Assembly: GCF_022869005.1 (NCBI RefSeq)
Contig: NZ_JALIEA010000006.1
Location: 62,001 to 126,000, forward strand
DNA length: 64,000 nt
Direction of reading: 5' to 3'
Origin: Corynebacterium kalidii
GTDB taxonomy: Bacteria > Actinomycetota > Actinomycetes > Mycobacteriales > Mycobacteriaceae
Every line of letters begins with the position of its first letter. Within the stretch, counting starts at the first letter, position 1. The translations under genes were made by a program, and so were the position numbers. Of the stretch, positions 6,416 through 38,036 are shown piece after piece. The notes below the pieces were generated by a model. The model did not search any database. It saw only the letters and a program-made list of their open reading frames with translations, and was not told where the DNA came from.

Positions 6416-6597
6416 CACTGTGGGAGAGGCCAGGTCCAGCGCCGGCCGCCGTAGGAGCAACACCTCCCCGTCGACACTCTCAGGCACCAGCACCATTGTG
6501 GCGAGGCAGCTCTGGAAAGAGCCGGTCACCGTCGTCCGTGGCTCGGCCGCCGAAGGAGAAAAAGCTCTCAGGCACCATCGACAGAGTGGGGAGGGAG
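6416..6597 (+). promoter_or_regulatory. Tandem glycine riboswitch
   Basis: Two consecutive aptamers precede gcvP. Aptamer 1 (about 6416-6505) has GGGAGAG, then GCCGTAGGAGCAA and ACTCTCAGGC. Aptamer 2 (about 6506-6597) has CTCTGGAAAGAG, then GCCGAAGGAG and GCTCTCAGGCACC, closing with CAGAGTGGGGAGG. These are the conserved cores of the glycine class, in the usual two-aptamer arrangement. In known examples glycine binding turns on the downstream glycine-cleavage genes, which fits gcvP-gcvT-gcvH here. Confidence 0.93.
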
Positions 6598-21954: not shown

Positions 21955-22060
21955 CGCTGCCGACGTTCCCGCACACCCTGTGGGCCGGCCGTCTGCGGGA
22001 TACAGTTCTGGGTGGCCGGTCGCACCGGCGGCCGGACTCTCCCCGGAAGGACACCCCTCA

Positions 22061-22961: not shown

Positions 22962-23354
22962 TCACGCCTCGTCGGGAAGCTCGTCGAGCTGGGTCAGGAA
23001 CTCCTCGGCGTACGCGACCCGGGTCCGCAGCTTCTCGAGGCGCTCACCGGTCTGTGAACGGACGTCCGCGATGAGCTGGCTGGCGTGTTCCTTGTCGGCT
23101 GGGGTGGCATCTGTCGAGGCGAGGGTGTCCACGGCGCGGAGGAAGACACCGATCTCCTCCAGTGTGAAATCCAGCGGCTTCATGCGGCGGATCAGCAGGA
23201 TCCGTTCCACGTCCCCGTCGCTGTAGAGGCGGAAGCCGCCTGCGCTACGGCCGGACGGGCTGACGATTCCTAGTTCGTCGTAGTGGCGCAAGGTGCGGAT
23301 CGACATGCCTGTGGCGTCGGCGACCTGGCCGATCTTGCTGCCGTGTACCGCCAT
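22962..23354 (-). CDS. MerR-family transcriptional regulator
   Basis: 130-residue regulator with the MerR winged helix at the N-terminus (KIGQVADATGMSIRTLRHYDELGIV, then FRLYSDGDVERILLIRRMKPLDFTLEEIG) and a coiled-coil dimerisation helix. There are no Cys residues for metal or redox sensing. Divergent from the SulP transporter gene, with a 15-bp palindrome in the shared region, so it probably controls that transporter and itself. The inducer is unknown. Confidence 0.88.
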   Translation of the reverse strand: MAVHGSKIGQVADATGMSIRTLRHYDELGIVSPSGRSAGGFRLYSDGDVERILLIRRMKPLDFTLEEIGVFLRAVDTLASTDATPADKEHASQLIADVRSQTGERLEKLRTRVAYAEEFLTQLDELPDEA

Positions 23355-23518: not shown

Positions 23519-25075
23519 GTGACCCAATCTACCACTGAGTCTGGCGCCGACCAGGCCACGCGATCCGACCCGCCCGCCCCGACCGGGGTCGTCGCCTCGT
23601 TCCGCTACGCGTTCAGTTCACTTCCGCGCCTGCGCACCGAAGTACTCGCCGGGCTGGTCGTCGCACTCGCGTTGATCCCGGAAGCCATCTCGTTCTCCAT
23701 CCTGGCCGGTGTGGATCCCAGGGTCGGGCTGTTCGCCTCCTTCACGATGGCGGTGACCATCGCCTTCACGGGCGGACGGCCGGCGATGATCTCGGCGGCC
23801 ACCGGTGCCGTCGCGGTGGTGATCGCGCCGGTCGCCCGCGACCACGGCATGGACTACTTCATCGCCACCGTCCTGCTCGCGGGCGTCTTCCAGGTCGCCC
23901 TCAGCGTGCTCGGGGTCGCCAAGCTGATGCGCTTCATCCCCCGCTCGGTGATGATCGGCTTCGTCAACGCCCTGGCGATCCTGATCTTCACCGCCCAGCT
24001 TCCCCACCTGCTCGGCGTGCCTTGGCTGGTCTACCCACTGGTGGCGGTCGGCCTGGTCATCATGGTCGGTTTCCCGAAGCTGACCACGGTGATCCCCGCC
24101 CCGCTGGTCGCGATCGTCCTGATCACCGTCGTGGTCGTGGTCAGCGGTTGGAGTGTGCCCGACGTCAGCGACCAGGGGGAGCTCCCCGACAGTCTGCCCG
24201 GCCTCTTCGTCCCCGACGTCCCGCTGAACCTGGACACCCTGACGATCATCGCGCCCTATGCCCTGGCCATGGCGCTCGTGGGCCTGATGGAGTCACTGAT
24301 GACGGCGAAGTTCGTCGACGACATCACCGACGTGCACTCCGACAAGACCCGGGAAGGCTGGGGGCAGGGTGTCGCCAACATCGTCAGCTCCCTGTTCGGT
24401 GGCATGGGAGGGTGCGCCATGATCGGACAGACCATGATCAACGTGCGTTCCTCCGGCGCCCGCACCCGCCTGTCCACCCTGTTGGCGGGAATCTTCCTGC
24501 TGATCCTGGTCGTCGCCCTCGGTGACATCGTCGGGCTGATCCCGATGGCGGCCCTCGTCGCGGTGATGGTCATGGTGTCGGTGGGCACCATGGACTGGCA
24601 TTCCCTACGGACCTTGCCGATGATGCCGCTGAGTGAGACGGCCGTGATGGTGGTGACCGTGGTTGCGACCCTGGCCACCCACAACCTGGCCATCGGCGTG
24701 GTGCTCGGCGTCGTCACGGCGATGATCATGTTCGCCCGACGGGTCGCCCACCTGGTGAGCGTCGAGAAAGTCGCGGAACTCGACACCGACCACGACGGCG
24801 CGATCGGCACCCGTACCTACCGGGTGCACGGGCAGTTGTTCTTCGCCTCCAGTAATGACCTCGTCTACAGCTTCGACTACACCGACCCGGCCGAACACAT
24901 CGTCATCGACCTGACGGAGGCCGACGTGTGGGACGCCTCCACGGTCGCCACCTTCGACAGCATCACCACGAAGTTCCGGGCACGTGGAAAGACCGTCGAC
25001 ATCATCGGTCTCGACGGCGCCAGCCAGGAACGCCTCGACCGGTTCTCGGGCCGGCTCGGCGGCGAGGGGGCGTGA
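23519..25075 (+). CDS. SulP-family anion transporter with STAS domain
   Basis: Membrane transporter for sulfate, bicarbonate or another anion. The N-terminal membrane domain (about residues 25-420) begins RTEVLAGLVVALALIPEAISFSILAGVDP, shown here only in part: LVVALALIPEAISFSILAG is the SulP helix-1 signature. The C-terminal STAS domain (about 430-515) has the conserved HIVIDLTEADVWDASTVAT stretch. At 518 residues it is typical of bacterial SulP/BicA-like proteins. GTG start at 23519 follows a good GGAGG site. Regulated, probably, by the divergent MerR protein. Confidence 0.9.
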   Translation: MTQSTTESGADQATRSDPPAPTGVVASFRYAFSSLPRLRTEVLAGLVVALALIPEAISFSILAGVDPRVGLFASFTMAVTIAFTGGRPAMISAATGAVAVVIAPVARDHGMDYFIATVLLAGVFQVALSVLGVAKLMRFIPRSVMIGFVNALAILIFTAQLPHLLGVPWLVYPLVAVGLVIMVGFPKLTTVIPAPLVAIVLITVVVVVSGWSVPDVSDQGELPDSLPGLFVPDVPLNLDTLTIIAPYALAMALVGLMESLMTAKFVDDITDVHSDKTREGWGQGVANIVSSLFGGMGGCAMIGQTMINVRSSGARTRLSTLLAGIFLLILVVALGDIVGLIPMAALVAVMVMVSVGTMDWHSLRTLPMMPLSETAVMVVTVVATLATHNLAIGVVLGVVTAMIMFARRVAHLVSVEKVAELDTDHDGAIGTRTYRVHGQLFFASSNDLVYSFDYTDPAEHIVIDLTEADVWDASTVATFDSITTKFRARGKTVDIIGLDGASQERLDRFSGRLGGEGA

Positions 25076-25103: not shown

Positions 25104-25724
25104 TCAGCGGACACCGCATGTGTGCATGATTCCGATCCCCCGCAGAATCGCGTCCAACTGGGCGGCGAGGTCCGGTTCGGACCTGGCGGCGACCAACGGG
25201 AAATCGGCGAGTTCATTATGGGACCTGATCTCGTCGGTCGCGCTCGTCCACCCCTCCTCCAGGAGCGACATGCTGCCGTAGAACCAGGCGAGGAGAAGAT
25301 CGTGGGCGTCACGGGGATTGACGCAGGCGTCGGCGGTGAGGGCGAGGATCGTCTCACTGAGGCGGAACGAGTGGGTGCCGAGAATCGGTTGGTGGCGCAG
25401 CAGCGAGAGTGTGCCTGGAACGGTCATCATCTCCTGGGCGCGCTGTGCGAGACTGAGGAAGGCGCAGTGCCGGCAGGTCGACGACAGCAGCTCCTCCGGG
25501 TGCAGCATGCCCAGACGCTCGTCCCCGAGGTCGTGCCAGATACGTGCCAACGACGGGAAGTAGGTGTACAGCGCGTTCGTGGCGACCCCCACCTCGGTGG
25601 CGATCGCGCGTAGCGACACGCCCTCCAGGGAGCCCCGGTTACGCAGGAGCCGGTCACCTGCCCTGAGGATCATGTCCTGGTTGATGTCGCCGCGTGGGCC
25701 CCTCTTCGCCTGGTGATCCGCCAT
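25104..25724 (-). CDS. TetR-family transcriptional regulator
   Basis: 206-residue repressor-like protein. The N-terminal HTH (ILRAGDRLLRNRG through LRAIATEVGVATNALYTYFPS) is clear, and the C-terminal ligand-binding region resembles the TetR_C_33-type class, with two Cys in SSTCRHCAF that might bind metal or form a disulfide. It converges on the SulP gene and is upstream of the small lipoprotein gene, so its target is not obvious from position. Confidence 0.85.
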   Translation of the reverse strand: MADHQAKRGPRGDINQDMILRAGDRLLRNRGSLEGVSLRAIATEVGVATNALYTYFPSLARIWHDLGDERLGMLHPEELLSSTCRHCAFLSLAQRAQEMMTVPGTLSLLRHQPILGTHSFRLSETILALTADACVNPRDAHDLLLAWFYGSMSLLEEGWTSATDEIRSHNELADFPLVAARSEPDLAAQLDAILRGIGIMHTCGVR

Positions 25725-25782
25725 GGGGTGCTGTACGAAAACCTCTCCCGAATCGGTCGCGCACGGAGTTTACGGGTGCAGT

Positions 25783-26301
25783 CTACTCCTTGCAGACGTC
25801 GACGAGTGCGCTGCTGGACTCGTGGAGACTTTCCATGTGCGCCGTGATCTTGTCCTGCAGCGCCAAGGACGTGGCTTCTACCTCATCGACGGTCTGGAGG
25901 TACTCGCCTGAGTCGGGGTCGAGCTGGTGGAACGCCGCATAGGTGCTGAGGTCGGCCTCCGCGATGGTGGTCACGTACGCCTGGTACTCCTCTGCGAAAC
26001 GGTCCAGAGCTTCCTTGACCTCGCTGTTCGAGACATCGTCCTGTGCGCGCTCGAGGGCCTCGGTGCCGGGGGCGAGTGTCTCGGCGTACACCTCGTTGAG
26101 GTCGATGTCTCCGCCCTGCGCGGCACTCTGTGCCTCAGCTTCAAGGTTGGTGTCCAGTGCGACCCTTGTTGCTGAGAGGGCGATGTTCGTCTGCAGGCAT
26201 GCCTCGTGGACACTCTGCCCTCCGGAACAGGCGGCCAGGGGGAGTGTCAGTGTGACCGCGGCGCAGCCGACGCCGAAGATTCTGGCCCGGGTGGTGAGCA
26301 T
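25783..26301 (-). CDS. Small secreted lipoprotein, unknown function
   Basis: Lipoprotein of 172 residues: signal peptide MLTTRARIFGVGCAAVTLTL followed by the lipobox LAAC (LPLAACSGG). The mature part is acidic and almost wholly helical. The start at ATG 26301 fits the AAGGAG site 10 nt upstream; ATG 26310 would sit directly on that site. No named family recognised. It is divergent from a small membrane protein gene. Confidence 0.68.
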   Translation of the reverse strand: MLTTRARIFGVGCAAVTLTLPLAACSGGQSVHEACLQTNIALSATRVALDTNLEAEAQSAAQGGDIDLNEVYAETLAPGTEALERAQDDVSNSEVKEALDRFAEEYQAYVTTIAEADLSTYAAFHQLDPDSGEYLQTVDEVEATSLALQDKITAHMESLHESSSALVDVCKE

Positions 26302-26340
26302 GGGGATCATTCTCCTTGTGTTTGTGAAGCTATGTTAGTC

Positions 26341-26353
26341 TGTACAGTGTACA
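26341..26353. promoter_or_regulatory. Palindromic site TGTACAGTGTACA
   Basis: Two TGTACA hexamers (each self-complementary) flank one G between the divergent lipoprotein and small membrane protein genes. It could be a dimeric repressor site; no cognate regulator can be named, although a TetR gene is one gene away. Confidence 0.4.
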
Positions 26354-26406
26354 AATTAACACGGCATGCCCGTGGCAAGGAAAAGCGCGAGAGAGGGAGA
26401 GTTGCG

Positions 26407-26646
26407 GTGGAATCGATCATCATGGCGGTGCTGATGGGTGGGCTCGGAGGGCCGGCGCTGGCATGGGCGATGGCAACCCCGAAAAGCCGCAAGGCGCATG
26501 CCGAGCGTAAGGCGAGGTTCGAGGAGGGGCGCGGCTCGGATCCCGAGAAGCTTCCCGTCGGGCCACACAAACCTATCGTGACGAATGCCCTGTTCTGGGG
26601 TGTGGTCTATGCGGCCATCGGCTTCTTCCTGGGGACGTTGGTCTGA
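26407..26646 (+). CDS. Small two-helix membrane protein, unknown function
   Basis: 79 residues with an N-terminal hydrophobic segment (IIMAVLMGGLGGPALAWAM), a basic/acidic middle (KSRKAHAERKARFEEGRG) and a C-terminal helix (ALFWGVVYAAIGFFLGTLV). The GTG at 26407 is chosen because GAGAGGGAGAG lies just upstream; the longer open frame to 26206 overlaps the divergent lipoprotein gene. It is the last gene before the chrA tail fragment. Confidence 0.5.
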   Translation: MESIIMAVLMGGLGGPALAWAMATPKSRKAHAERKARFEEGRGSDPEKLPVGPHKPIVTNALFWGVVYAAIGFFLGTLV

Positions 26647-26678
26647 TCGCTGCGCGTACCGATGTTTATGTGGGGGCG

Positions 26679-26846
26679 CCCCTAGAGTACCGCCCACCCC
26701 AGGGCGCCCGCGGCGATCACCACGGCCCAGGCCGGGACCTTCCAGCTGTGGAGCGCCACGAACGCCGCGACGGCCAGTACCAGGGCGTTGACGCAGTTGC
26801 CGAGGATTCCGGTGGTGAACACCGGGTCGTAGAGTGCGGCGGCGAG
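26679..26846 (-). pseudogene. Truncated chrA 3' fragment (left direct repeat)
   Basis: These 168 bp match the 3' end of the intact chrA (32798-32965) with about seven mismatches, in the same orientation and with an in-frame stop retained (26681-26683). About 54 C-terminal codons of the chromate transporter survive; nothing upstream of them does. Homology starts exactly at the stop codon region and does not extend into the DNA beyond it. The copy marks the left edge of the 6-kb accessory block. Confidence 0.88.
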
Positions 26847-27287
26847 CCTCAGTCGTTATCGGACAGGTGATGAGCGGCTGGCCGGCACTGATCTGGTGTT
26901 TCACCATTTCGTGGTGGTGTTGTTGGCTGATGTCTGGCACGCCAGGGTCACTCGCCCCTCTTTGTCCTTGGGTCGATGCCTGGGTCGCTACACGGTGCTA
27001 CGGATGACATCGGTCCCGTCGTGCAACAGCTGGACATGGACTATCCGGCTGTTGTTGACCCGTACCCGTCCGAAGGTTGGGTGACGTTTTCGCGCAGTGC
27101 GGACAGGTATTTGCGGGGTGCGGGGCATTCCGGGCGGGGGTCGGGCTTCACCTCGAACAACCCAGGGTCGGGTCAGAGGTGAGTCCTGCCCGATGAGGTC
27201 CAGCGCGGTTGTTCGCTGGGGCGGTGGGCGAGTGTGTCACGGGGAGACCTGCACGGCCTTCGCTGCCGTGTGATCACGATGGGGAAA
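26847..27287. other. 440-bp region without a recognisable gene
   Basis: No open frame here has a ribosome-binding site or recognisable product; the longer ones end abruptly on both strands. A short hairpin CACCA-TTTCG-TGGTG occurs at 26902-26916. Its place between the chrA fragment and the transketolase operon suggests recombination debris, but I could not identify a transposase. Confidence 0.5.
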
Positions 27288-27302
27288 GTTGACTGTTGAC
27301 AA
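27288..27302 (+). promoter_or_regulatory. Half-site GTTGACTGTTGACAA with -35 TTGACA
   Basis: Contains the consensus -35 hexamer TTGACA at 27296-27301 and two GTTGAC half-sites of the presumed GntR operator. No clean -10 is visible 16-18 nt downstream. Confidence 0.45.
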
Positions 27303-27335
27303 TGATTGCGATCCAGGTCACACTGTACAGGTGCA

Positions 27336-27352
27336 TTGTTAACAGTTGACAA
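27336..27352. promoter_or_regulatory. FadR/GntR-type operator upstream of the transketolase operon
   Basis: TTGTTAAC-A-GTTGACAA, a 17-bp inverted repeat with one mismatch, 15 nt before the transketolase ATG. A matching site occurs at 31946-31960 at the SDR promoter, and the adjacent FadR-type regulator is the natural binding protein. Confidence 0.65.
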
Positions 27353-27367
27353 CGAAAGGGACGGGTA

Positions 27368-28237
27368 ATGACAGTGGCTCATGACGTCATCGACCCAGAA
27401 CGCGTGCAGCGGATCCGGGAATCGGCGTACCGCATCCGGCAGTACGCCATCACGCAGGCGGAACTCCAAGGGCAGGGGTACATCGGCCAGGCTCTGGATC
27501 TCGCGGACATTCTGGCGGTCCTCTATGCCGACCAGCTGGTTCTCAACCCACACGACGTCGCGGACCCGGAGCGTGACCGGTGCTTCATGTCGATGGGGCA
27601 CTACGGTCTCGCCCTCTACGCGGCCCTGGTGGAGGCGAAGTTCCTGCCGGAGGAGGAGCTCCAGACCTACGCCGCGGATGACTCCCGGCTGCCGATGTCG
27701 GCGATGGCGGTCTACACGCCCGGTGTCGAGATCTCGGGAGGTTCACTCGGTCACGGTCTTCCGATCGCGCTGGGTGCCGCGATGGCGTTGGCGAGGAAGG
27801 GCGGTTCTCAGATCGTCGTGAATCTGCTGTCGGACGGTGAGCTGGACGAAGGGTCGACGTGGGAAGCCGCCAAGGTCGCCGGTGACCTGAAGTTGAAGAA
27901 CATCGTCGCTGTCGTCGACGTCAACGGTCAGCAGGCTGACGGTTCGACGCGGCCTGGCGAACTGCTGGACGGTTCCGCGACGGCACGGCGGTTCGAAGCC
28001 TTCGGCTGGACCGCGCATGACGTGGACGGCCACGACATCGAGGCTCTCATCCGGGCCCTGGAGACCGCCCGCGCCGCCGAGGACGGACGACCCCACGTGC
28101 TTGTCTGTCGGACCGTGATGGGGAAGGGGGTCCCCATGCTGGAGAACAGGGACAAGCTCCACTTCATGAGGGTCGACGAAGAGGAGTGGGTACAGGTGAA
28201 AAAGCAGCTCAAGGAAGGATTCGGCAATGGTCAGTGA
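27368..28237 (+). CDS. Transketolase, N-terminal (ThDP pyrophosphate-binding) subunit
   Basis: One half of a split transketolase: moves a two-carbon ketol unit between ketose and aldose substrates. It carries the Mg/ThDP region LLSDGELDEGSTWEAAKVAG with the downstream Asn in VVDVNGQQ, and substrate/cofactor histidines in SMGHYGLALYA, GGSLGHGLP and the C-terminal HFMRV. The usual G-D-G-E of the ThDP motif reads S-D-G-E. At 289 residues it is normal for a split N-subunit. AACGAAAGGGACGGGTA precedes the ATG. It overlaps the C-subunit gene by 11 nt, so the subunits are made together. Confidence 0.92.
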   Translation: MTVAHDVIDPERVQRIRESAYRIRQYAITQAELQGQGYIGQALDLADILAVLYADQLVLNPHDVADPERDRCFMSMGHYGLALYAALVEAKFLPEEELQTYAADDSRLPMSAMAVYTPGVEISGGSLGHGLPIALGAAMALARKGGSQIVVNLLSDGELDEGSTWEAAKVAGDLKLKNIVAVVDVNGQQADGSTRPGELLDGSATARRFEAFGWTAHDVDGHDIEALIRALETARAAEDGRPHVLVCRTVMGKGVPMLENRDKLHFMRVDEEEWVQVKKQLKEGFGNGQ

Positions 28238-29228
28238 CAAGAACAGCGGAACGGTCCTGCGCTCCGGCGCGATGATCGCCGACGTGGCGGGCGAGGGTGT
28301 CGAGACGGTGTCCGCACCCCTGGGGCACGCGTTGCTCGACGCCGCGGAGAACGACGACCGCATCGTCGGGTTGTCGGCGGACCTCGCGAAGTACACGGAC
28401 ATGCACATCTTCCGTGACGCGCTCCCAGATCGCTTCTACCAGGTGGGCATGGCCGAGATGGCGATGATGGGTGCAGCGGCGGGACTCGCGCAGGAGGGTT
28501 TCGTACCGTTCGCATCCACGTACTCCGTGTTCGCGACCCGTCGAGCCTACGACTGGCTGCTCCTCGACATCGCCGAGCAGAAACTCAACGTCAACCTCGT
28601 GTGTGCCCTGCCCGGGCTGACGACCGGCTACGGTCCCAGTCACATGGCCTTCGATGACCTGGCGATCCTCCAGGCGTGTCCGCACCTGACGATCCTCGAT
28701 CCCTGTGACGCGACCGACATCCAGGCGGCGACGCCGGCGATGGCGGCGGTCGACGGACCGACCTATATGCGTCTCCTGCGGGGGCGGGTGCCCAAGATCC
28801 TGCACAACTACGACGGGGAGTTCGAGCTCGGAAAGGCCCGGAAGCTGCGGGACGGAGGGAATGCCCTGGTCATCAGCTCCGGTCTCGCAACCCAACGTGT
28901 CCTGGAGGCCGCTGAGAAGCTGGACAGGGACGGTATCGAGGTCGAGGTTCTTCACCTGGCGACCATCAAGCCCCTCGACGAGAAGGCGGTCATCGACGCG
29001 ATCGTCCGTTCCGAGCGCCCGGTGTTCACCGCGGAGAACCATTCGGTTGTCGGCGGGCTCTTCTCTGCCGTGGCGTCAGCTGCCGCGCGGAACGGCGTCG
29101 GCCGGAAGATCACGCCGATCGCACTACCTGATGAATTCCCGAGTGCGGGCGCGCTCCCCACCCTCGAGGAGCGCTACGGAATCAGTGCTGGGGCAATGGA
29201 ACGAACCATTCGTTCCAGTCAGGGTTGA
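28227..29228 (+). CDS. Transketolase, C-terminal (pyrimidine-binding) subunit
   Basis: Second half of the split transketolase, 333 residues. The catalytic Glu that activates ThDP lies in YQVGMAEMAMMGAAAGLA, and the aromatic face is in FVPFASTYSVFATRRAYDW. The C-terminal domain (from ALVISSGLATQRVLEAA) completes the fold. ATG 28227 has AAGGAAGG upstream, inside the N-subunit gene. Split transketolases often serve dedicated sugar or polyol pathways rather than the central pentose phosphate pathway, which fits the permease and SDR neighbours. Confidence 0.92.
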   Translation: MVSDKNSGTVLRSGAMIADVAGEGVETVSAPLGHALLDAAENDDRIVGLSADLAKYTDMHIFRDALPDRFYQVGMAEMAMMGAAAGLAQEGFVPFASTYSVFATRRAYDWLLLDIAEQKLNVNLVCALPGLTTGYGPSHMAFDDLAILQACPHLTILDPCDATDIQAATPAMAAVDGPTYMRLLRGRVPKILHNYDGEFELGKARKLRDGGNALVISSGLATQRVLEAAEKLDRDGIEVEVLHLATIKPLDEKAVIDAIVRSERPVFTAENHSVVGGLFSAVASAAARNGVGRKITPIALPDEFPSAGALPTLEERYGISAGAMERTIRSSQG

Positions 29229-29407
29229 TGAATTTCTGGTCCGGTACGCGTGCTTCTCCGAGGGGCACGGGAAAATTCAAGGGTAAGTGCCTGAGGCTGC
29301 GGTGAGGAATCGTTGCGTGCTGCTATGTTGCAGTGATGGCAGGCGTTGTTTGCGTCATATTTTCTTTCCGATGTGAGCATCCGGGCGCTTACGTGAAAGG
29401 GGGCACC

Positions 29408-30886
29408 ATGGGTGCCGGTTACTTAATAGTTCTCGCGATTGTCGCTATCGTGGCCCTTCTCGTTCTGGTTACGGTCATGAAGTGGCCCGCGTATATCGCC
29501 TTGCTTGCCGTCGCGGTCGTCACGGCGTTGGCCGCCGGGACGTCGCCGAGTGAGGTGATGCCACTCATCATCGACGGCATGGGAAGCACCCTGGGAAGTG
29601 TGGCGCTCCTCGTCGGTCTCGGGGCGATGCTGGGCGGGATCCTGGAGAAATCCGGTTCCGCTGCCGTTCTCGCACATTCCTTCCGGAGCCGTCTCGGGGA
29701 GAAACGGTCCGGAACCGCACTTCTCCTCGCCGCATCACTCGTCGCCATACCCATCTTCTATGACGTGGCTTTCATCCTGCTGGTGCCGATCGTCTATTCT
29801 TTCGCCCGGATGGCGGGGCATCGAAGTCCGGTGATCCTCGGACTCCCCATTGCTCCTTTCATGGTCTACCTGCACAACACGTTGCCCCCGCATCCCGGAA
29901 TCACTGCGGCCACGGAAAGTCTCGGCGGAGACGTCGGTGTCCTGCTCATGGTCGGGTTGGTTGTCGCGGTGCCGGTCGGGTTCGTGGCGGTCTACATGGC
30001 GAAGTTCCTGAACCTGAAGGACTATGTCATGACGCCCGATGTCGCGCGGCGATTCGCAGCTGTCTCGACATCGGCACATGCGCAACCGGTCCGTGGTGGC
30101 GGTGACGGTGGTGGCGGTGACGGTGGTGGCGGTGACGGTGGTGGCGGTGACGCCGGAGGGGATGGCGATGATGCCGACGGTCGTGTCGACGATGAATCGG
30201 CCCATGTGACCACTCCTGCAACATGGGAAGTCTTGTTGTGTATCCTCCTTCCGCTGCTGATGATTGCGGTCGGAACGGTCACTGACCTGGTTCTTCCTGA
30301 CGGGCATGCGGCCCTTGAGTACACGAGCTTCATCGGTGCCCCGGCCTTCGCCCTCCTGGTGGCTGCGGTGCTCGGATACTACCTCCTGGGGATCCGGCAT
30401 AAGCGTCGCGGTGCGAAGGTCTCCGAAATCATGGACGACGCGCTTGGTCCGGCAGCGGTCGTGGTCTTCGTCACCGGCGCCGGTGGGGTATTCGCGGCAG
30501 TTCTGACGGCCACCGGCATCGGCGAAGCGATATCCGACGCGCTCCTTGCGACGGGTATGCCCATTCTGCCGCTGGTGTTCCTCCTTGCTGCGGCGTTGAA
30601 GGCGGCGCAGGGCTCGGGGACGGTCGCTGCGCAGACCACCGGAGGCATCATCGCGGCGACCGTGCTGTCGGGGGACTACAGCGTCGTCCAGGTCGCCTTG
30701 TTGACGATCGCGATCGGTTGTGGATCGAACTCCCTCACGCACGTCAATGACTCGGCCTTCTGGATCACCACGCGGTACCTCGGTCTCTCCGTCATCGATG
30801 GGCTGAAGACTTGGTCGGTCATGGGCCTGACGCTTGCCCTCACCGGATTTGCCATCACGTGCGGACTCTGGGTCGTCGTCCCGTAG
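29408..30886 (+). CDS. GntP-family permease with Gly/Asp-repeat loop
   Basis: Polytopic sugar-acid:H+ symporter, 492 residues, about twelve to fourteen membrane segments. GntP signatures include IPIFYDVAFILLVPI, LPPHPG and the C-terminal SNSLTHVNDSAFW. Family members carry gluconate or related hydroxy acids, so the block probably handles such a compound. The central cytoplasmic loop (about residues 228-260) is expanded by GGGGD repeats encoded by a 15-bp DNA repeat. The start is ATG 29408, just after GAAAGGGGG; the upstream ATG at 29333 has no site. It follows the transketolase genes by 179 nt. Confidence 0.9.
   Translation: MGAGYLIVLAIVAIVALLVLVTVMKWPAYIALLAVAVVTALAAGTSPSEVMPLIIDGMGSTLGSVALLVGLGAMLGGILEKSGSAAVLAHSFRSRLGEKRSGTALLLAASLVAIPIFYDVAFILLVPIVYSFARMAGHRSPVILGLPIAPFMVYLHNTLPPHPGITAATESLGGDVGVLLMVGLVVAVPVGFVAVYMAKFLNLKDYVMTPDVARRFAAVSTSAHAQPVRGGGDGGGGDGGGGDGGGGDAGGDGDDADGRVDDESAHVTTPATWEVLLCILLPLLMIAVGTVTDLVLPDGHAALEYTSFIGAPAFALLVAAVLGYYLLGIRHKRRGAKVSEIMDDALGPAAVVVFVTGAGGVFAAVLTATGIGEAISDALLATGMPILPLVFLLAAALKAAQGSGTVAAQTTGGIIAATVLSGDYSVVQVALLTIAIGCGSNSLTHVNDSAFWITTRYLGLSVIDGLKTWSVMGLTLALTGFAITCGLWVVVP
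30091..30150 (+). repeat. 15-bp tandem repeat inside the GntP gene
   Basis: Four copies of CGGTGGTGGCGGTGA (first copy with one mismatch) encode the GGGGD loop. The period is a multiple of three, so copy-number change would lengthen or shorten the loop without a frameshift. Confidence 0.93.
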
Positions 30887-30887
30887 T

Positions 30888-30911
30888 GTCCTGACGAGCG
30901 TCCTGACGAGC
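30888..30911 (+). repeat. 12-bp direct repeat immediately after the GntP stop
   Basis: GTCCTGACGAGC occurs twice head-to-tail, starting 2 nt after the TAG stop. It resembles the other CTGAC-containing duplications found at gene ends in this window. Confidence 0.7.
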
Positions 30912-30962
30912 TTCCGGACAATGGCGGCCGGGGAGCTTCCCCGGGCGGGGACGTGACAGAAG

Positions 30963-31019
30963 AAGTCTGGCCCCGTGCACGGAATCCACCCGGATCCGTG
31001 CACGGGGCCAGACTTTTCT
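30963..31019. terminator. Strong hairpin terminator between convergent GntP and SDR genes
   Basis: A perfect 21-bp stem: 30963-30983 pairs with 30995-31015 around an 11-nt loop, followed by TTTTCTC on the plus strand. It serves the GntP transcript and could also stop the convergent SDR transcript, since a TTCTTCT tract follows the stem on the minus strand. Confidence 0.85.
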
Positions 31020-31052
31020 CTGCCCGCTGTCGTGGCCTACGGGCGGTGACCG

Positions 31053-31832
31053 TCAGCTGATGTAGGAGCCGCCGTTGATGTTCTGGGTCGTGCCGGTGAT
31101 GTAGCCGGCGTCGTGGCTGGAGAGCCAGACGAACAGCGCCGCCATCTCGTCCGGAGTGCCCTGCCTGCGGAGCGGCACAGCCTGGGCGAGTCGACGCTCG
31201 TTCTCGTCGTCGGACCCGGCACGGATGTCGGTGTCGACGACCCCCGGGGCGACGGCGTTGACGGTGATGCCGTGTTCGGCGAGTTCACGCGCCAGGCCAC
31301 GGGTGAGCCCGATGACGCCGGCCTTCGCGGCGGCGTAGGCGGTTCTGGAGAAGACCCCGCCCCCGTGTTGTGCGGTGACCGACGACATGTTGACGATCCG
31401 GCCGTAGCCGCCGGCGATCATCTGCGGGACGAATTCCTTGCTGGTCAGGAAGCTGCCGGTGAGGTTGACGGCGATCACGCGGTTCCATTCGTCGAGTCCG
31501 AGCTCCTCGAATGCCGAGGGGGAGGGGATCCCCGCGATGTTGGCGAGGGCCCCGACGGGCGGCAGGTCGCTGTCGACGATGGTCTGTGCCGCGTTTGCCA
31601 CGGAGTCCTCTGAGGTCACGTCACAGGCGAAGCCGGCGGAGGGGACCCCGAATTCGGAGGCGATGGACTCTGCCGCGGCCTGCGCGGAGGCCGCGTCCAG
31701 GTCGAGGACGACGACCGCCCAGCCTTCGCGGGCGTACCGGCGGGCCGTGGCCTGACCGATGCCGCGGGGGGAGGCGGCTCCGGTGACCACGGCAGTGCGC
31801 TGGCCGATCTCGGGTGGGGTGCTGAGTGACAT
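31053..31832 (-). CDS. SDR-family oxidoreductase (sugar/polyol type)
   Basis: NAD(P)-dependent dehydrogenase of 259 residues. The cofactor motif is TGAASPRGIG, the stability motif is ANIAG, and the catalytic set is in NMSSV and YAAAK (Tyr, Lys). The C-terminal GYITGTTQNINGG is common to ketoreductases and sugar/polyol dehydrogenases. It likely oxidises the imported polyol or sugar acid, or reduces the derived ketone, before or after the transketolase step. Divergent from the GntR gene, with the shared operator upstream of its start; GGAGCAGGACCAC precedes the ATG. Confidence 0.87.
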   Translation of the reverse strand: MSLSTPPEIGQRTAVVTGAASPRGIGQATARRYAREGWAVVVLDLDAASAQAAAESIASEFGVPSAGFACDVTSEDSVANAAQTIVDSDLPPVGALANIAGIPSPSAFEELGLDEWNRVIAVNLTGSFLTSKEFVPQMIAGGYGRIVNMSSVTAQHGGGVFSRTAYAAAKAGVIGLTRGLARELAEHGITVNAVAPGVVDTDIRAGSDDENERRLAQAVPLRRQGTPDEMAALFVWLSSHDAGYITGTTQNINGGSYIS

Positions 31833-31929
31833 GTGGTCCTGCTCCTTCTTTTTTGTCTCGCCGGACGCCTGTGATCTGTCCGATAGCGGTGAAACTGGTG
31901 TGATTCAAGACTCCCCCCTTCGCGAGATA

Positions 31930-31960
31930 TTGTCAACCGGTAACGGTTAACTGTCGACAA
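31930..31960. promoter_or_regulatory. GntR operator region between SDR and GntR genes
   Basis: TTGTCAAC (31930-31937) and GTTAAC-T-GTCGACAA (31946-31960) match the half-sites of the operator at 27336-27352. The inner stretch AACCG-GTAA-CGGTT is a further perfect inverted repeat. This arrangement links the SDR and transketolase promoters to one regulator. Confidence 0.6.
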
Positions 31961-32106
31961 TGAAAGCCTGCAGGTGCGGAGCGATGGTGTAGGTTGACCG
32001 GTCCGTGCGGCCCGGTCACTGCGTTCGTGCTGCGTTTGCCCGCTGTCGATGTACAGTTCTTATGTCGGTTGACGACTGTCAGCAGTGGTGTGAGAGGACG
32101 TGGAAC

Positions 32107-32766
32107 GTGTCGGAGAAGCAGAATGCTCTTCTGGGGCTGAAGAAGACGAATCTCCGGGAGCAGGCGCTGTCTGCGCTGCGGACGGCGATCACCCGGGGAG
32201 GTCTTCCGCCCCGGAGTGCGTTGATCGAGACCGAACTGTCGGAACAGCTCGGTATCAGCAGAGGGACCCTGCGTGAAGCGCTCCGTCAGCTGCAGCAGGA
32301 GGGACTCGTCGTCCTGGGGGATCGCGGTCGCCTGTCGGTGAGGAGCCTCGAGGCACATGAGATCCGCGAGATCTTCGTCGTCCGTTCTGCGCTGGAGGGG
32401 CTCGCTGCTGCTGAGCTGGCGCTCCAGGACGACCGCACGGGGACTGTCGCGGAACTTCAGTCCGCACTGGACCGGATGGCAGAGGCCGGGACCGAACGAC
32501 TGGATGACCGCATCGAGTGCGACCTCAGCTTTCACCGTGCGCTGTGCAGCCTGACCGGCAACGCGACATTGCTGCACTCGTGGACGTCGTTGGAGGGGTC
32601 GATCCGCATGTCGATCATGTATGCGGGGGTGGAGCGTGCGGTGGGGAACATGGACGTGGGGAAGCACATGGAGATCGTGAAGGCCATCGAGGCCGGTGAC
32701 CCGGAGGCGGCCCGTCGCGCAGTCGCAGAGCACCTGAAGTGGGCGTCGGACAACCTGGTGGCGTAG
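32107..32766 (+). CDS. GntR-family (FadR/FCD subfamily) regulator
   Basis: Regulator of 219 residues. The N-terminal winged helix contains LREQALSALRTAITRGGLPP and the recognition part LSEQLGISRGTLREALRQLQQEGLV. The C-terminal FCD domain is all-helical, with metal/ligand-binding residues in ECDLSFHRALCSL and a later His in KHMEIVKAIEAGD and VAEHLKWA. It probably represses the SDR and transketolase promoters and is released by a pathway sugar acid. GTG 32107 is preferred (GAGAGGACGTGGAAC upstream); a longer frame to 32005 lacks a site, and a -10-like TACAGT lies at 32052-32057. Confidence 0.86.
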   Translation: MSEKQNALLGLKKTNLREQALSALRTAITRGGLPPRSALIETELSEQLGISRGTLREALRQLQQEGLVVLGDRGRLSVRSLEAHEIREIFVVRSALEGLAAAELALQDDRTGTVAELQSALDRMAEAGTERLDDRIECDLSFHRALCSLTGNATLLHSWTSLEGSIRMSIMYAGVERAVGNMDVGKHMEIVKAIEAGDPEAARRAVAEHLKWASDNLVA

Positions 32767-32797
32767 CGTCCCCTGACCTGCGGTTTCCGGTGACGGT

Positions 32798-32965
32798 CCC
32801 CTAGAAAACGACCCACCCCAGGGCGCCCGCGGCGATCACCACGGCCCAGGCCGGGACCTTCCAGCTGTGGAGCGCCACGAACGCCGCGACGGCCAGTACC
32901 AGGGCGTTGACGCCGTTGCCGAGGATTCCGGTGGTGAACACCGGGTCGTACAGCGCGGCGGCGAG
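32798..32965 (-). repeat. Right direct repeat (3' end of intact chrA)
   Basis: About 96% identical to 26679-26846, offset exactly 6119 bp, no gaps. It includes the chrA stop codon. The pair could recombine to remove the intervening block. Confidence 0.9.
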
Positions 32966-34027
32966 GATGCCCACCACCCCGGCGTTGATGCCCGTCAGTA
33001 CCCTGCGGGTGGCGGCGTTTCCCCGCAGTGCCTCCCAGAAGGGTAGCGTGCCCACCACCAGCAGCGCGGCCGGCAGGAATATCGCCACGGTGGCGACCAG
33101 TGCGCCGACAATGCCGGTCACCGTCCCGGAGCTGGATGCGCCGAGGAAACCGGCGACGGTGAACAACGGCCCCGGGACCGCCTGGGCGGCCCCGTACCCG
33201 GCGAGGAAGACCTCGGGGTCGACGAGGCCGGCGGTCTCCGCCTGCAGGAGCGGCAGCACCACATGGCCGCCGCCGAAGACCAGCGACCCCGCGCGGTAGA
33301 AGACGTCGGCCAGCGACAGGTAGGCGTTCTGCGTCCACGCGGCGAGCAGGGGAAGCCCGGCCAGCAGCAGGGCGAACAACCCCAGGCACGCGACAGCGGT
33401 CCGTCGGGACACCCGGACCGCGAAGGCGTCCTCCGCCCGCGGGGCCTGCTCCTGCGGGGTGAGCCAGAGGAAACCGACGAGGCCGGCCACCGCGACGGCG
33501 ATCGCCAGGGTCGCCGGGCCGGGGAAGAGCAGGACGACGATCATCGCCGCCGCCGCGATGGTGGCCCGGGGTGCGTCGGGCGTCAGAGACCGGGCCATAC
33601 CCAGGACGGCGTGTGCGACGACGGCGACGGCGGCGGCCTTCAGCCCGTCGATCCAGCCGGCGTCGGAGAGGTCGCCGACGGCGGCCAGGCCGTAGGCGAA
33701 GGCGACGAGAAGCACGACCGAGGGCATCGTGAACGCGAACCACGCGGCGAACATCCCGGCGTACCCGGCTCTCTGGAGTCCGATGGTCATCCCCACCTGG
33801 GACGACGCGGGGCCGGGGAGGAACTGGCACAGCGCGACGAGGTCCGCGTAGGCCTTCTCGGACAACCACGCGCGGCGCTCCACGAAGGCCTCGCGGAAGA
33901 ACGCCAGATGGGCGACCGGGCCGCCGAAGCTGGTGAGGCCGAGGCGGAGGAAAACGAGGAAGACCTCCCAGGTTGCTCCTGTGTTTCCTGGTCGTACGTC
34001 GCGGCCGTGGGGCGGGGTTCGGGGCAC
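32801..34027 (-). CDS. chrA: Chromate transporter, two-domain ChrA
   Basis: Membrane efflux protein expected to export chromate. At 408 residues it has the two homologous halves of long-chain CHR proteins: the first has LRLGLTSFGGPVAHLAFFRE and CQFLPGPASSQ, the second has GSLVFGGGHVVLP and QAVPGPLFTVAGFLG. About ten to twelve membrane segments. The GTG at 34027 is preferred as start; the frame continues to a TTG at 34063. It is intact although its 3' end is the repeat bordering the transketolase block. Transport of other oxyanions is possible. Confidence 0.9.
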   Translation of the reverse strand: MPRTPPHGRDVRPGNTGATWEVFLVFLRLGLTSFGGPVAHLAFFREAFVERRAWLSEKAYADLVALCQFLPGPASSQVGMTIGLQRAGYAGMFAAWFAFTMPSVVLLVAFAYGLAAVGDLSDAGWIDGLKAAAVAVVAHAVLGMARSLTPDAPRATIAAAAMIVVLLFPGPATLAIAVAVAGLVGFLWLTPQEQAPRAEDAFAVRVSRRTAVACLGLFALLLAGLPLLAAWTQNAYLSLADVFYRAGSLVFGGGHVVLPLLQAETAGLVDPEVFLAGYGAAQAVPGPLFTVAGFLGASSSGTVTGIVGALVATVAIFLPAALLVVGTLPFWEALRGNAATRRVLTGINAGVVGILAAALYDPVFTTGILGNGVNALVLAVAAFVALHSWKVPAWAVVIAAGALGWVVF

Positions 34028-34103
34028 GTGACGATCTTGACAACCTCGGGCCACCCCGGTCAACGCGGACCGGGTGAACTTTGGGTGAACGAGGCGGCGG
34101 GGC

Positions 34104-34457
34104 TCAGCCGATCTGTAACACGGTCCGCAGCGCGGTGAAGACCTCGGGCCGGACCCGGTGGATCACGGTGCGACCGTCACGGTGGCGTGCCAGCAGGCCT
34201 GCCTCGGTCATCTTCTTCAGGTGGTGCGAGATCGTCGGCTGGCTCAGCCCCATCATCCCGGTGAGTTCACCGACACTGGCCGGCTCGCATCCCGCGGCGG
34301 CCAGCTGCGACAGGATGCGCAGCCGTACCGGCTCCGCCAGCACCTTGAACAGCCCGGCGTAGTGCACCGACTCGTCCTGGGTCAGCGGGCCGGTCCCGAG
34401 TGAACAACACTGCTCGATGTCCGGGGCAGCGGCGGGCAGGGGCTGGGCGGTGCTCAT
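34104..34457 (-). CDS. arsR: ArsR-family arsenic-responsive repressor
   Basis: 117-residue winged-helix repressor. The HTH is GELTGMMGLSQPTISHHLKKM followed by the wing ARHRDGRTVIHRV. The adjacent Cys pair near the N-terminus (IEQCCSLGTGPL) resembles the As(III)-binding Cys of corynebacterial ArsR proteins, with no ELCVCDL-type site in the recognition helix. Divergent from acr3 with two operator copies between. Start ATG 34457; the long upstream frame is an artefact antisense to acr3. Confidence 0.9.
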   Translation of the reverse strand: MSTAQPLPAAAPDIEQCCSLGTGPLTQDESVHYAGLFKVLAEPVRLRILSQLAAAGCEPASVGELTGMMGLSQPTISHHLKKMTEAGLLARHRDGRTVIHRVRPEVFTALRTVLQIG

Positions 34458-34471
34458 GGTCACCACGCTAC

Positions 34472-34524
34472 ATTGACGAATGTCGATACGGGAACTACCT
34501 TCTGATATTGACCACTGTCGATAT
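34472..34524. promoter_or_regulatory. Two ArsR operator copies
   Basis: ATTGAC-GAAT-GTCGAT (34472-34487) and ATATTGAC-CACT-GTCGATAT (34505-34524) share the same dyad and lie between arsR and acr3. The two centres are about 35 bp apart, suited to control of both divergent promoters. Confidence 0.75.
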
Positions 34525-34542
34525 GGAGCGAGGACGAGGCCC

Positions 34543-35655
34543 GTGACCCCACCACCGAGATCTGACGCCGCGCCGGCCCGGATGTCGTTCCTGGACCGTT
34601 TTCTCCCGGTCTGGATCATCCTGGCCATGGCCGCCGGCCTGGTCATCAGCCGCACGGTCCCCGGCCTCCGGGATGCCCTGGGGGCATTGGAGATCGGCGG
34701 CATATCCATCCCTATCGCGGTGGGTCTGCTGGTGATGATGTACCCGCCGCTGGCGAAGGTCCGGTACGACAAAGCCGGCAGGATCGCCGGGGACACCCGG
34801 CTGATGAGCGTGTCGCTGGTCCTGAACTGGATCGTCGGCCCGTTGCTCATGTTCGTCCTGGCCTGGGTCTTTCTTCCGGACCAGCCCGAACTGCGCACCG
34901 GGTTGATCATCGTCGGACTCGCCCGCTGCATCGCCATGGTGCTGGTCTGGTCCGACCTGTCGTGCGCCGACCGGGAGGCCACCGCTGTGCTGGTGGCGAT
35001 CAATTCCGTGTTCCAGGTGCTCATGTTCGCGGTGCTCGGCTGGTTCTACCTGCAGGTACTGCCGTCCTGGCTGGGGTTGGAGACAACCTCGGCGGAGTTC
35101 TCCTTCTGGACGATCGTGACCTCGGTGCTGGTGTTCCTGGGCATCCCGCTCCTCGCCGGGGTGGCCTCACGCCTGCTGGGGGAGAAGGTGAAGGGTCGCG
35201 ACTGGTACGAGAACAGCTACCTGCCGAGAATCTCCCCACTGGCCCTGATCGGGTTGCTGTACACGATCGTGCTGTTGTTCTCTCTCCAGGGTGAGCAGAT
35301 CGCGGCGAATCCGTGGGCGGTGGCGCGGCTGGCCGTGCCGCTGGTGATCTACTTCCTGGGCATGTTCGCCCTCGCACTGGTGACGGCGAAGGTGTCGGGG
35401 CTCGACTACGCCCGGTCGGCGTCGGTGGCGTTCACCGCGGCGGGCAACAACTTCGAGCTGGCGATCGCCGTGGCCATCGGGACGTTCGGTGCCGCCTCCG
35501 GCCAGGCGCTGGCGGGCACTGTCGGGCCGTTGATCGAGGTCCCCGTCCTCGTCGCGCTCGTGTACGTCATGCGGCGGGCCGGGCCGGTACTGTTCGCCGG
35601 AGACCCCACCGCGCCGCTACCCACCCGTCGACCGAAGGAGCACGTCCCGTCATGA
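34543..35655 (+). CDS. acr3: Arsenite efflux transporter, ACR3 family
   Basis: Ten-segment arsenite permease, 370 residues. Typical elements: [27 protein letters not shown], and [11 protein letters not shown] with the essential membrane Cys, plus the late motif [17 protein letters not shown]. It exports As(III) produced by ArsC. GTG 34543 has a purine-rich site (AGCGAGGACGAGG). Its stop overlaps arsC (ATGA), so the two are coupled. Confidence 0.93.
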
Positions 35656-36062
35656 CCACCCGTCCCTGCGTCCTGTTCGTCTGCGTCAGCAACGCCGGTA
35701 AGTCCCAGATGGCCGCGGCCCTGACCCGGCACCGCGCCGGGGAGGCCGTCGAGGTGCACTCCGCAGGCACCCACCCCGGTGACCGGCTCAACGGGCAGTC
35801 GGAGCTGGCGGTCGCCGAGGTCGGCGCCGACATGTCCGGCGACCGTCCGAAGGGGGTCGACCCGGGGCTCCTGCGACGGGCGGACCGTGTTATCGTCGTC
35901 GGGCACCAGGCGCAGCTCGAGCTCCCGGCCGACGCCGTCGGGACGCTGGAACGGTGGCCCACCGACGAGCCGTCCGACCGGGGGATCGACGGTGCGGAAC
36001 GGATGCGGCTGATCCGGGACGACATCGCCGCCCGGGTGGCGGACCTGCTCGACCGGCTGTGA
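35652..36062 (+). CDS. arsC: Arsenate reductase, mycothiol-dependent LMW-phosphatase type
   Basis: 136-residue arsenate-mycothiol transferase/reductase that converts As(V) for export as As(III) by Acr3. The P-loop is [13 protein letters not shown] with the nucleophilic Cys, and the late segment [23 protein letters not shown] (quoted in part: [10 protein letters not shown]) matches corynebacterial ArsC1/2. There is no second Cys pair as in thioredoxin-coupled enzymes, consistent with mycothiol/mycoredoxin chemistry. ATG overlaps the acr3 stop. Confidence 0.92.
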
Positions 36063-36074
36063 GCGCCCCGGCCG

Positions 36075-37817
36075 CTACTCCCCGGCGGGGTCCGGCAGCT
36101 CGCGGGGGACGACCTTGCCCACCGCGTTGCGGGGGAGCGATTCCAGGAAGACGTAGCTGCGGGGGACGTTGTGCCGGGCGAGCTTGTCCTTGACGGCCGC
36201 CTTCGCCTTCTCTGTGAAGGCCTCCCGGTCGGTCCCGGCCGCGTCGCCGGCGAGGACGACGTAGGCGCAGAGGGACTGGCCGAAGTCGGCGTCGTCGACG
36301 CCCTGCACGTGGACTTCCTCGACCTCAGGTAGTCCGTAGAGGACATCCTCGGTCTCCTGCGGGAAGACGTTCTCGCCGCCGGAGACGATCATGTCGTCGC
36401 TGCGTCCGGCGATGTAGAGCAGCCCGTCCCGGTAGTACCCCAGGTCGCCGGTGGCGACGAGCCCCCGGATGGTCTCCTTGTCCACGCCGGGGCGCGTGTA
36501 GCCCTCGAACAGCATGTCGTTGCCGACGAAGATCCGTCCGATCTCGCCCTCGGGCAGTTCCGTGCCGTTGTCGTCGAAGATCTTCAGGACGGTGGCCATC
36601 GGCGGCTTGCCGGCGGTGGTCGGGTGCTCGGCCAGCTCCTCCGGCTTCGCGATGGACGCCCAGCTGACCTCGGTGGAGCCGTAGAGGTTGTAGAGCACGT
36701 TGCCGAATTTCGCGGTGGTCTCCTCGATCACCGCCGGTGGCAGTGCCTCGCCGCAGGCGGTGATGACCCGGGTCCCGGGGTTGAAGTCGTCCGGCACGGC
36801 CGCGAGCAGGCGCCGCAGCATCGTCGGCACGATCGCGATCGCGTCCGGACGGTTCGCCTCGATCAGCTTCACCGCCTCGACCGGCGAGAACCGGCGCTGG
36901 AGGATCAGGGTGCTGCGCAGTGCCAGACCCAGCTGGATCTGCGCGAAGCCCCAGGTGTGGAACATCGGCGCCGCGATGTAGTACCCGCGGTGCTGCTTCA
37001 GCGGGATCCGCGACATGATCGACGACGCCGGCAGGTACGTCCGTGGTTCCGGCCGCCGTGCGCCCTTGGGTGTGCCGGTCGTGCCGGAGGTGAGGATGAT
37101 CGTGCGTCCACGGCGCGGACGGGCCGGGATCTTCTGCTCGTGCGGGGTGGAACGCAGGACCTGGGTCAACGTCGGCCAGTCCGGGTTCCTGGTCGCGTGG
37201 TTCGCGGTGGCCGTCGCCTCGGCGACGTTGCCCGCGTACTCGACCTCGTCGTACTGGTGCCCCTCCGGGATCCGCGCGGCCGTGGTGTGGTTCTCCTCCC
37301 AGTTGACGATCACGGGGCACTCGTCGAACCCCGCCGGGAGCAGGGGGATGAACTCCTCGTCGATGAAGAGCAGGTCGATCTTCTGCTCCTTGATCACCGC
37401 GCGGGTCTGGTGGGCCGACGCACCGGTGTTGAACAGGACGATGTCGGTGCCCAGACGTCCGTGCGCGCACAGCGCCATGATGAACCCGCGGTGGTTCCTG
37501 GACAGGACGCCGATCCTGTCGCGCTCCCGGATCCCGGAGCGGTAGAGGGCCTTCGCCAGCAGGTTCGTCTGTTCATGCAGTTCCGAGTAGGTTATGGAGC
37601 CAGCGTCGTCGATGATGGCGGTGTGGTGGGGGTCGCGCGCCGCACCGAGGGCGAGGATGCCGGCGGGCAGGAACTCCCACTGGTAGATGTACTTGAGGGC
37701 CTTGCCCATGGCGACAGGCGACATGGGTCCGAGGACCCCGGACTTGAACAGCGGCAGTGTCCCCTTCGCCAATGTGGGTATCTGCGTGAGGGTGACGGCA
37801 GGGGTGGATGCGCTCAT
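36075..37817 (-). CDS. Acyl-CoA synthetase (FadD-like AMP-forming ligase)
   Basis: 580-residue ANL-superfamily ligase that activates a carboxylic acid to acyl-AMP and then acyl-CoA. The P-loop is TIILTSGTTGTPKGARRP, motif A5 is NLYGSTEVSW, the adenylate Asp is in LVATGDLGYYRDG, and the catalytic C-terminal Lys is in RNAVGKVVPREL. The ~45-residue N-terminal extension before KYIYQWEF resembles mycobacterial FadD2/FadD12-like enzymes acting on fatty acids. GAAGGAGCACC before ATG 37817. No beta-oxidation genes are adjacent; the acid is unknown. Confidence 0.88.
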   Translation of the reverse strand: MSASTPAVTLTQIPTLAKGTLPLFKSGVLGPMSPVAMGKALKYIYQWEFLPAGILALGAARDPHHTAIIDDAGSITYSELHEQTNLLAKALYRSGIRERDRIGVLSRNHRGFIMALCAHGRLGTDIVLFNTGASAHQTRAVIKEQKIDLLFIDEEFIPLLPAGFDECPVIVNWEENHTTAARIPEGHQYDEVEYAGNVAEATATANHATRNPDWPTLTQVLRSTPHEQKIPARPRRGRTIILTSGTTGTPKGARRPEPRTYLPASSIMSRIPLKQHRGYYIAAPMFHTWGFAQIQLGLALRSTLILQRRFSPVEAVKLIEANRPDAIAIVPTMLRRLLAAVPDDFNPGTRVITACGEALPPAVIEETTAKFGNVLYNLYGSTEVSWASIAKPEELAEHPTTAGKPPMATVLKIFDDNGTELPEGEIGRIFVGNDMLFEGYTRPGVDKETIRGLVATGDLGYYRDGLLYIAGRSDDMIVSGGENVFPQETEDVLYGLPEVEEVHVQGVDDADFGQSLCAYVVLAGDAAGTDREAFTEKAKAAVKDKLARHNVPRSYVFLESLPRNAVGKVVPRELPDPAGE

Positions 37818-38036
37818 GGTGCTCCTTCGGAGAGATTCTATGTACAGCATGGTTATGGAATCACATGGTTTACGCCGTTTACGTTAGTTTCCGAAGGCAT
37901 ATCCGTCAGCGGAACCGCGAACGCCGGTGGTACCTGCGGCGACATCCGGATCAGCTACGGTTGGCAGTCTGCCCGGCTCCGGCACGGGCAGACCGTTTTC
38001 TTCCGTTACCGTCCCAGCGTCGTACGAGGAGTCTCC

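Follow-up and report, generated by a model that had tools for sequence, protein, structure and literature searches.

Why should the 3′ end of a chromate transporter gene, chrA, stand on both sides of a block of catabolic genes? The question is raised by a locus of Corynebacterium kalidii (genome of 3.02 Mb in 17 contigs), which we analysed in a window of 64,000 nucleotides, the window being the whole stretch of DNA under analysis (contig NZ_JALIEA010000006.1, positions 62,001 to 126,000). Between a GDSL hydrolase and an AMP-ligase, this window has a slot that appears to hold two stacked modules: a resistance cluster (MerR-SulP-chrA-ars) and a catabolic block under GntR control (Table 1). An earlier, sequence-only reading of the locus had seen in the repeat the geometry left by an element that integrates into the 3′ end of a gene and restores it, with decay of a second chrA gene and later insertion of the block as the alternative. 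Our leading but tentative explanation is that the two modules became interleaved in a variable slot through duplication of a chrA-bearing segment and partial loss, leaving the left tail as a dead fragment. The chrA tail has the look of a commonplace scar left when the genome was rearranged, and the idea that the repeat is a pair of attachment sites or the footprint of an element was not supported.

The duplicated chrA tail

The two copies (26679-26846 and 32798-32965) lie in direct orientation with starts 6119 bp apart, align over 168 bp without a gap and are identical at 161 bases, in agreement with the geometry and the roughly seven mismatches first described. The same 168-mer reached only 73-77 matching bases at best in 20 dinucleotide shuffles, excluding chance as the origin of the repeat; assembly error was also weighed as its source, and seven mismatches set the two copies apart. 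In left-copy coordinates, the mismatches fall at 26687, 26688, 26691, 26692, 26795, 26832 and 26835, the first four in the final coding bases of chrA ahead of the stop codon and the other three elsewhere, and they separate exact runs of 8, 2, 102, 36, 2 and 11 bases. The right copy forms the 3′ terminus of a chrA gene that is intact and encodes 420 amino acids. In the left copy the frame is open up to the stop codon, and the copy is a bare tail with no gene body upstream, as the sequence-only reading had it; the genes which that reading placed between the copies (a split transketolase, a GntP permease, a short-chain dehydrogenase (SDR) and a GntR/FCD regulator) were recovered as Pfam matches. 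Comparison of the exact boundaries showed that similarity ends 3 bp past the stop codon and, on the other side, at 26846. At this locus, edges close to stop codons are nothing unusual: the BLAST edges of the window against its closest relatives (genomes G030 and G003, described below) at MerR, SulP and arsC likewise lie no further than about 25 bp from the respective stop codons; compared directly, G003 and G030 are alike for about 140 bp beyond arsC. RecA recombines identical DNA, and the 102-bp exact core would plausibly let homologous recombination between the two copies delete the block. We accordingly predict that the catabolic block could be lost in one step.

The closest relatives carry the parts separately

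We searched 242 genomes of the genus with the left region and with the block, and G030 and G003 were the closest for the region. G030 has one chrA and no block: MerR-SulP is followed by chrA, with the stop codons of SulP and chrA 22 bp apart, and after a further 2.9 kb by arsR-ACR3-arsC. The 2.9-kb stretch presumably holds ArsP-like and FMO-like genes, both names being provisional; a slot copy of the FMO gene, related to the FMO-like gene of the G030 island, was profile-scanned. A form with one chrA and no block, which the sequence-only reading had looked to related genomes for, is therefore found in G030 with the same ars gene order, but at another chromosomal site, outside the hydrolase/AMP-ligase slot, and without the TetR-lipoprotein-open reading frame (ORF) segment of the window. 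The 2.9 kb between chrA and arsR is in turn absent from the window. Because the SulP and chrA stop codons are 22 bp apart in G030 and the ars order is the same, the block, together with other genes, interrupts in the window what is one cluster in that relative.

In G003, a transketolase-GntP pair lies about 0.3 kb past the hydrolase on one contig, and SDR and GntR lie on a second contig together with the AMP-ligase. We took the two contigs as one slot because the G030 slot has DNA in common with both, including a MerR/redoxin-type gene and an FMO gene. The block thus occupies the same slot in G003, a draft of 460 contigs in which no chrA match was found at E ≤ 1e-8, and a block present without the repeat is one of the outcomes that the sequence-only reading had named as refuting it. 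With the cluster lacking the block in G030, and the block lacking chrA in G003, the parts occur separately in the closest genomes. When the G030 slot genes were sought elsewhere in the present genome, one weak 111-bp match was all that was found, and their relocation within this genome was rejected on that basis. G003 also has the same SulP-ars island as G030, but without chrA and beside a tyrosine integrase. That integrase (L044 7317-8432) directly adjoins the island and may be how the island moves.

The left tail is the more changed copy

Aligned with the chrA tail of G030 over 166 positions, the left copy, the right copy and G030 agree at 151; both copies differ from G030 at eight, the left alone at six and the right alone at one, giving seven pairwise differences between left and right, nine between right and G030, and 14 between left and G030. 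The intact gene has the G030 base at six of the seven discordant sites and the tail at one, seven sites being the whole basis of the comparison. As an outgroup we used 43 other chrA tails, counting at each site only the rows with letters there. At a left-only site in a glycine codon, 36 of 42 other tails carried the right-copy base and four the left-copy base; at the other five left-only sites, the ratio of right-copy to left-copy bases was 32:4 (42 rows), 30:6 (36), 24:18 (42), 14:13 (36) and 3:1 (29), and at the single right-only site the right-copy base stood in 3/3 rows. A further outgroup comparison of the tails gave the same picture. The left tail is the more changed copy and, on these seven discordant sites, appears to hold most of the derived bases.

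Among the eight sites at which both copies differ from G030, three support a shared origin, four look like changes in G030 and one is undecided. The three carry bases that are uncommon in other tails (4/42, 1/42 and 9/42), which supports a recent common origin of the two copies. Decay of a second chrA copy, the alternative of the sequence-only reading, comes closer to the evidence than its integrating element, and the duplication likely arose in this lineage, an origin moderately supported by the sites (three for, one against).

Divergence of the block, and the spacer beside it

Four-fold-site identity to G003 and G030 was 59-66% for the flanks, 80-86% for MerR-SulP, 77% for chrA, 66-75% for ars and 34-55% for the block, and because these values differ the modules have different histories. 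GC content at third codon positions (GC3) was 74-82% for the block in the window (89% for SDR) and 51-71% for the block of G003; it was 88-93% for the hydrolase, AMP-ligase, chrA and ars genes, and 80-82% for the lipoprotein and the small ORF. The block is probably foreign and common to G003, judging from these comparisons, and its simple vertical descent from a common ancestor was weakened by the silent-site and GC3 results. Only the present genome and G003, out of the 242, matched most of the block length at E ≤ 1e-25, G116 and G090 giving weak matches to parts of it. In a sample of 394 genomes of the class, the nearest DNA match outside the genus was 69% identical, and 14 genomes, the present one counted, matched at E ≤ 1e-60.

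By BLAST, homology to the G003 block starts at 27288, on the first site of the motif GTTAACNGTTGACAAT, and stops at 32767, at the gntR stop codon. The motif has five matches at ≤3 mismatches, at four sites (one matched on both strands), where 0.13 were expected, and these operator-like sites are placed as for control by the GntR/FCD protein of the block, which as a whole resembles a complete regulon. From its protein families, the block likely serves sugar-acid uptake and breakdown. Within the GntP permease, in-frame 15-bp tandem repeats (30093-30167) encode a Gly/Asp-rich loop of GGGGD repeats, and the GntP protein of G003 is variable at the same loop too, without a regular repeat. A perfect 21-bp inverted repeat (30963-31015) between the convergent GntP and SDR genes is likely a two-way terminator.

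The spacer between the tail and the block (26847-27287) was searched as translated pieces that were subsets of the six frames: five gave no NCBIfam match, and three gave a single Pfam match at E 0.25. Six-frame pieces had no match in the loci of relatives that were compared, the best DNA match elsewhere in the genus was at E 0.0035, and one weak 37-base match was to a plasmid. An insertion sequence remnant was rejected on the genus and plasmid results and on the NCBIfam and Pfam results for the pieces submitted. A plasmid origin was likewise discarded, as megablast of 26000-34200 gave only short chrA matches (2% of the query) to two plasmid records; the TetR, lipoprotein and small-ORF proteins had no plasmid match.

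Proposed interleaving by duplication and partial loss

We postulate that the resistance cluster would have entered beside the block, after which a tandem duplication, from the chrA stop edge through the end of gntR, would have created the gntR/chrA junction; the first copy would then have lost the chrA body and the ars genes, and the second copy the block. We infer the duplication, its date and the order of these steps. In a consistency check on labels only, two starting orders were tried, and from each of them one tandem duplication and two deletions led to the order seen. This path accounts for the tail, for the junction of gntR with chrA and for the slot shared with G003, and a trait of duplication and loss, a truncated remnant of the duplicated gene at the junction that is more decayed than the kept copy, is present. 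We rank it just short of an even chance because it has left no other trace.

Several points weigh against this history. The 168-bp pair was the sole repeat in a self-comparison of 18000-42000, which revealed no further remnant of a duplicated segment, although this is also what complete losses would give. The 441-bp spacer has no explanation under duplication, and a single insertion of the block beside chrA takes fewer steps. The differences between the tails are few overall (7, 9 and 14 of 166), and one site, where a base rare in other tails (3/29) is common to the intact gene and G030, would place the tail outside these two. The silent sites of the block diverge from G003 more than those of the flanking genes do; this divergence and the difference in GC3 leave room for separate arrivals of the two blocks, and the case for the block's prior presence in the slot is the weaker for it. 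Finally, the comparison rests on relatives, no same-species strain being among the genomes, and the slot of G003 crosses a contig break.

Alternative histories and chrA pieces elsewhere in the genus

In a simpler history, which we consider somewhat unlikely, the slot already held the cluster when the block came in beside the chrA stop codon, with duplication of the final 168 bp, either through end-joining with long fill-in or through single-crossover integration of a circle carrying a chrA fragment. This takes the fewest steps, removal of one repeat unit leaves the cluster order of G030, and some bases are common to both tails; however, the presence of the rare block in G003, in the same slot beside the same hydrolase and without chrA, must then be coincidence or a hotspot, and the TetR-lipoprotein-ORF segment and the spacer are left unexplained.

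We searched for the ChrA protein in 80 of the 242 genomes, a non-random set comprising the present genome, 38 others with a DNA match to the left region and 41 larger genomes, and 52 of the 80 were matched. Four genomes other than the present one have a further chrA copy or piece that lies no more than 11 kb off and points the same way. G177 (L065 5733-11948) has a full chrA and an isolated 457-bp tail, 91% identical and 4.9 kb away, as well as a truncated third piece and two short further segments duplicated together with chrA. In G059, a full copy lies 6.3 kb from a 582-bp 5′ piece that matches it at 92% identity; in G121, two broken copies stand among several other duplicated segments; and G042 has two near-full copies in direct orientation, 3.9 kb apart and 77% identical. 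The DNA between the copies differs in each genome. In G142, two copies lie far apart; in G222, remnants only were found (L107 8197-8766), within or next to an ORF that carries an N-terminal fragment of a resolvase, with no full chrA found in that genome; and in G174, G213, G226, G232 and G238, the double match was a single gene read as two adjoining pieces. The intact chrA and the tail of G177 lie on either side of a two-component system, which gives an independent instance of the arrangement in the window. Because duplication and decay around chrA recur, the tail in the window is less remarkable, and chrA can be flagged as a gene that is duplicated and broken nearby in several species of the genus. 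A literature search found no paper joining Corynebacterium, chromate transporter, truncation, pseudogene and duplication.

A separately acquired second chrA that decayed to a tail, with the block entering between the two genes, has precedents in the near-full pair of G042 and in the recurring truncated pieces, and the one site joining the intact gene and G030 against the tail also fits. We nevertheless regard it as improbable: the tail differs from its neighbour at 7/166 positions, whereas G030 is separated from the right copy by 9 and from the left by 14, and uncommon bases stand at three of the sites that both copies share, so that gene conversion would later have had to act on an old paralogue; the pair in G042 is just 77% identical.

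Less probable still is a decayed site-specific element of the e14/icd kind, which would have entered the 3′ end of chrA and replaced 168 bp there, its integrase being lost afterwards. Its hallmark, a direct repeat of a gene 3′ end around inserted DNA with the gene kept whole, is present, and this part of the sequence-only reading stood. Geometry and size fit e14 in icd, for which one account gives 165 bp duplicated, 12 exchanges and a maintained frame (PMC11148124), and G177 shows an intact chrA with a tail 4.9 kb off, but that tail has 457 bp and not 168. No tyrosine integrase (PF00589) was found on the contig of the window (C6), the three matches in the genome all being on contig C17, which bears out the earlier remark that no integrase is seen; no recombinase was found among the 18 window proteins scanned, serine recombinases not having been searched genome-wide, and the scanned pieces of the spacer held no recognisable integrase fragment. 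By the published accounts, an event of the e14/icd type should leave the intact gene with a foreign 3′ end (PMC6379469, PMC11148124). At this locus it is the intact gene that has the G030 base at six of the seven sites, few as these are, the opposite of such a replacement, with most of the derived bases on the tail, and G003 has the block without chrA. A tRNA attachment site was rejected, no tRNA being present in the window. As a caution, a gene 3′ end found on both sides of cargo is not necessarily an attachment site.

A further idea is that recombination or integration strikes the 3′ end of chrA repeatedly in this genus, cargo that lacks a recombinase being mobilised in trans and added next to the gene, with a tail left each time (168 bp in the window, 457 bp in G177). 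It draws its support mainly from the recurrence of extra chrA pieces and seems to us the least likely of these accounts.

Gene content of the slot

The features of the slot are collected in Table 1. The lipoprotein and the small membrane protein between SulP and the left tail had no Pfam family match, and the putative lipoprotein (25783-26310) had no relative at E ≤ 1e-5 in the 241 other genomes of the genus or the rest of a 301-genome family sample. The ars genes match the corresponding islands of G030 and G003 at 83-85% DNA identity; the gene called arsR is putative, the profile scan having covered the other two. Outside the slot, a glycine riboswitch (RF00504) lies at 6502-6594 on the + strand.

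Table 1. Features of the hydrolase/AMP-ligase slot, in window coordinates.
Feature	Position	Strand	Support
GDSL/SGNH hydrolase, left border of variable slot	21932-22939	+	PF13472, E 1.5e-14; 82-83% DNA identity to G030 and G003
MerR-type regulator of resistance cluster	22962-23354	-	PF13411; four-fold-site identity 84% to G003, 81% to G030
SulP sulfate permease	23519-25075	+	PF00916
TetR-type regulator (-), putative lipoprotein (-), small putative membrane protein (+)	25104-26646		ORFs; TetR_N PF00440 for the first
Isolated chrA 3′ tail, left repeat copy	26679-26846	-	161/168 identical to right copy
Spacer between tail and block, 441 bp	26847-27287		No recognisable content in the searches made
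Operator-like sites ahead of transketolase genes	27288-27353	+	Motif GTTAACNGTTGACAAT at 27288 and 27338
Split transketolase, N and C parts	27368-29228	+	PF00456, PF02779, PF02780
GntP-family permease	29408-30886	+	PF02447, E 3.1e-108; start codon chosen, longest ORF from 29333
Short-chain dehydrogenase (SDR)	31053-31832	-	PF13561
Operator-like pair between SDR and GntR	31929-31961		Motif GTTAACNGTTGACAAT
GntR/FCD regulator, right end of block	32107-32766	+	PF07729, PF00392; start codon chosen, longest ORF from 32005
Right repeat copy, 3′ end of intact chrA	32798-32965	-
Intact chrA	32801-34063	-	PF02417, E 3.6e-72; 89% protein identity to G030
arsR (-), ACR3/SBF-family permease (+), arsC-type LMWPc (+)	34104-36062		PF01758, PF01451
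AMP-binding ligase, right border of slot	36075-37850	-	PF00501; same border in G030 and G003

Comparison with known systems

The locus resembles e14 in icd of Escherichia coli K-12, where a gene 3′ end of about 165 bp is duplicated directly around an insert with few mismatches and the gene stays whole; e14, however, is described as a prophage with a putative integrase gene that gives icd a new 3′ end (PMC11148124, PMC6379469), whereas here no tyrosine integrase was found on the contig, the cargo is a metabolic block and the intact gene keeps the 3′ end of its relative at six of seven sites. The SulP-chrA-ars island of G030 has the same genes in the same order, MerR-SulP-chrA-ars, but in the window three unrelated genes and the block are interposed, the 2.9 kb between chrA and arsR is lacking and the location is different. 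In tandem duplication-random loss (TDRL), treated in papers on mitochondrial genomes, duplication followed by loss changes gene order, and pseudogene fragments remain at the junctions. The history that we tentatively prefer for the window, duplication of a chrA-bearing segment with partial loss, would be like TDRL in its change of order and in the pseudogene fragment at the junction, and unlike it in concerning a bacterial chromosome, with one remnant only and with steps that are not directly observed.

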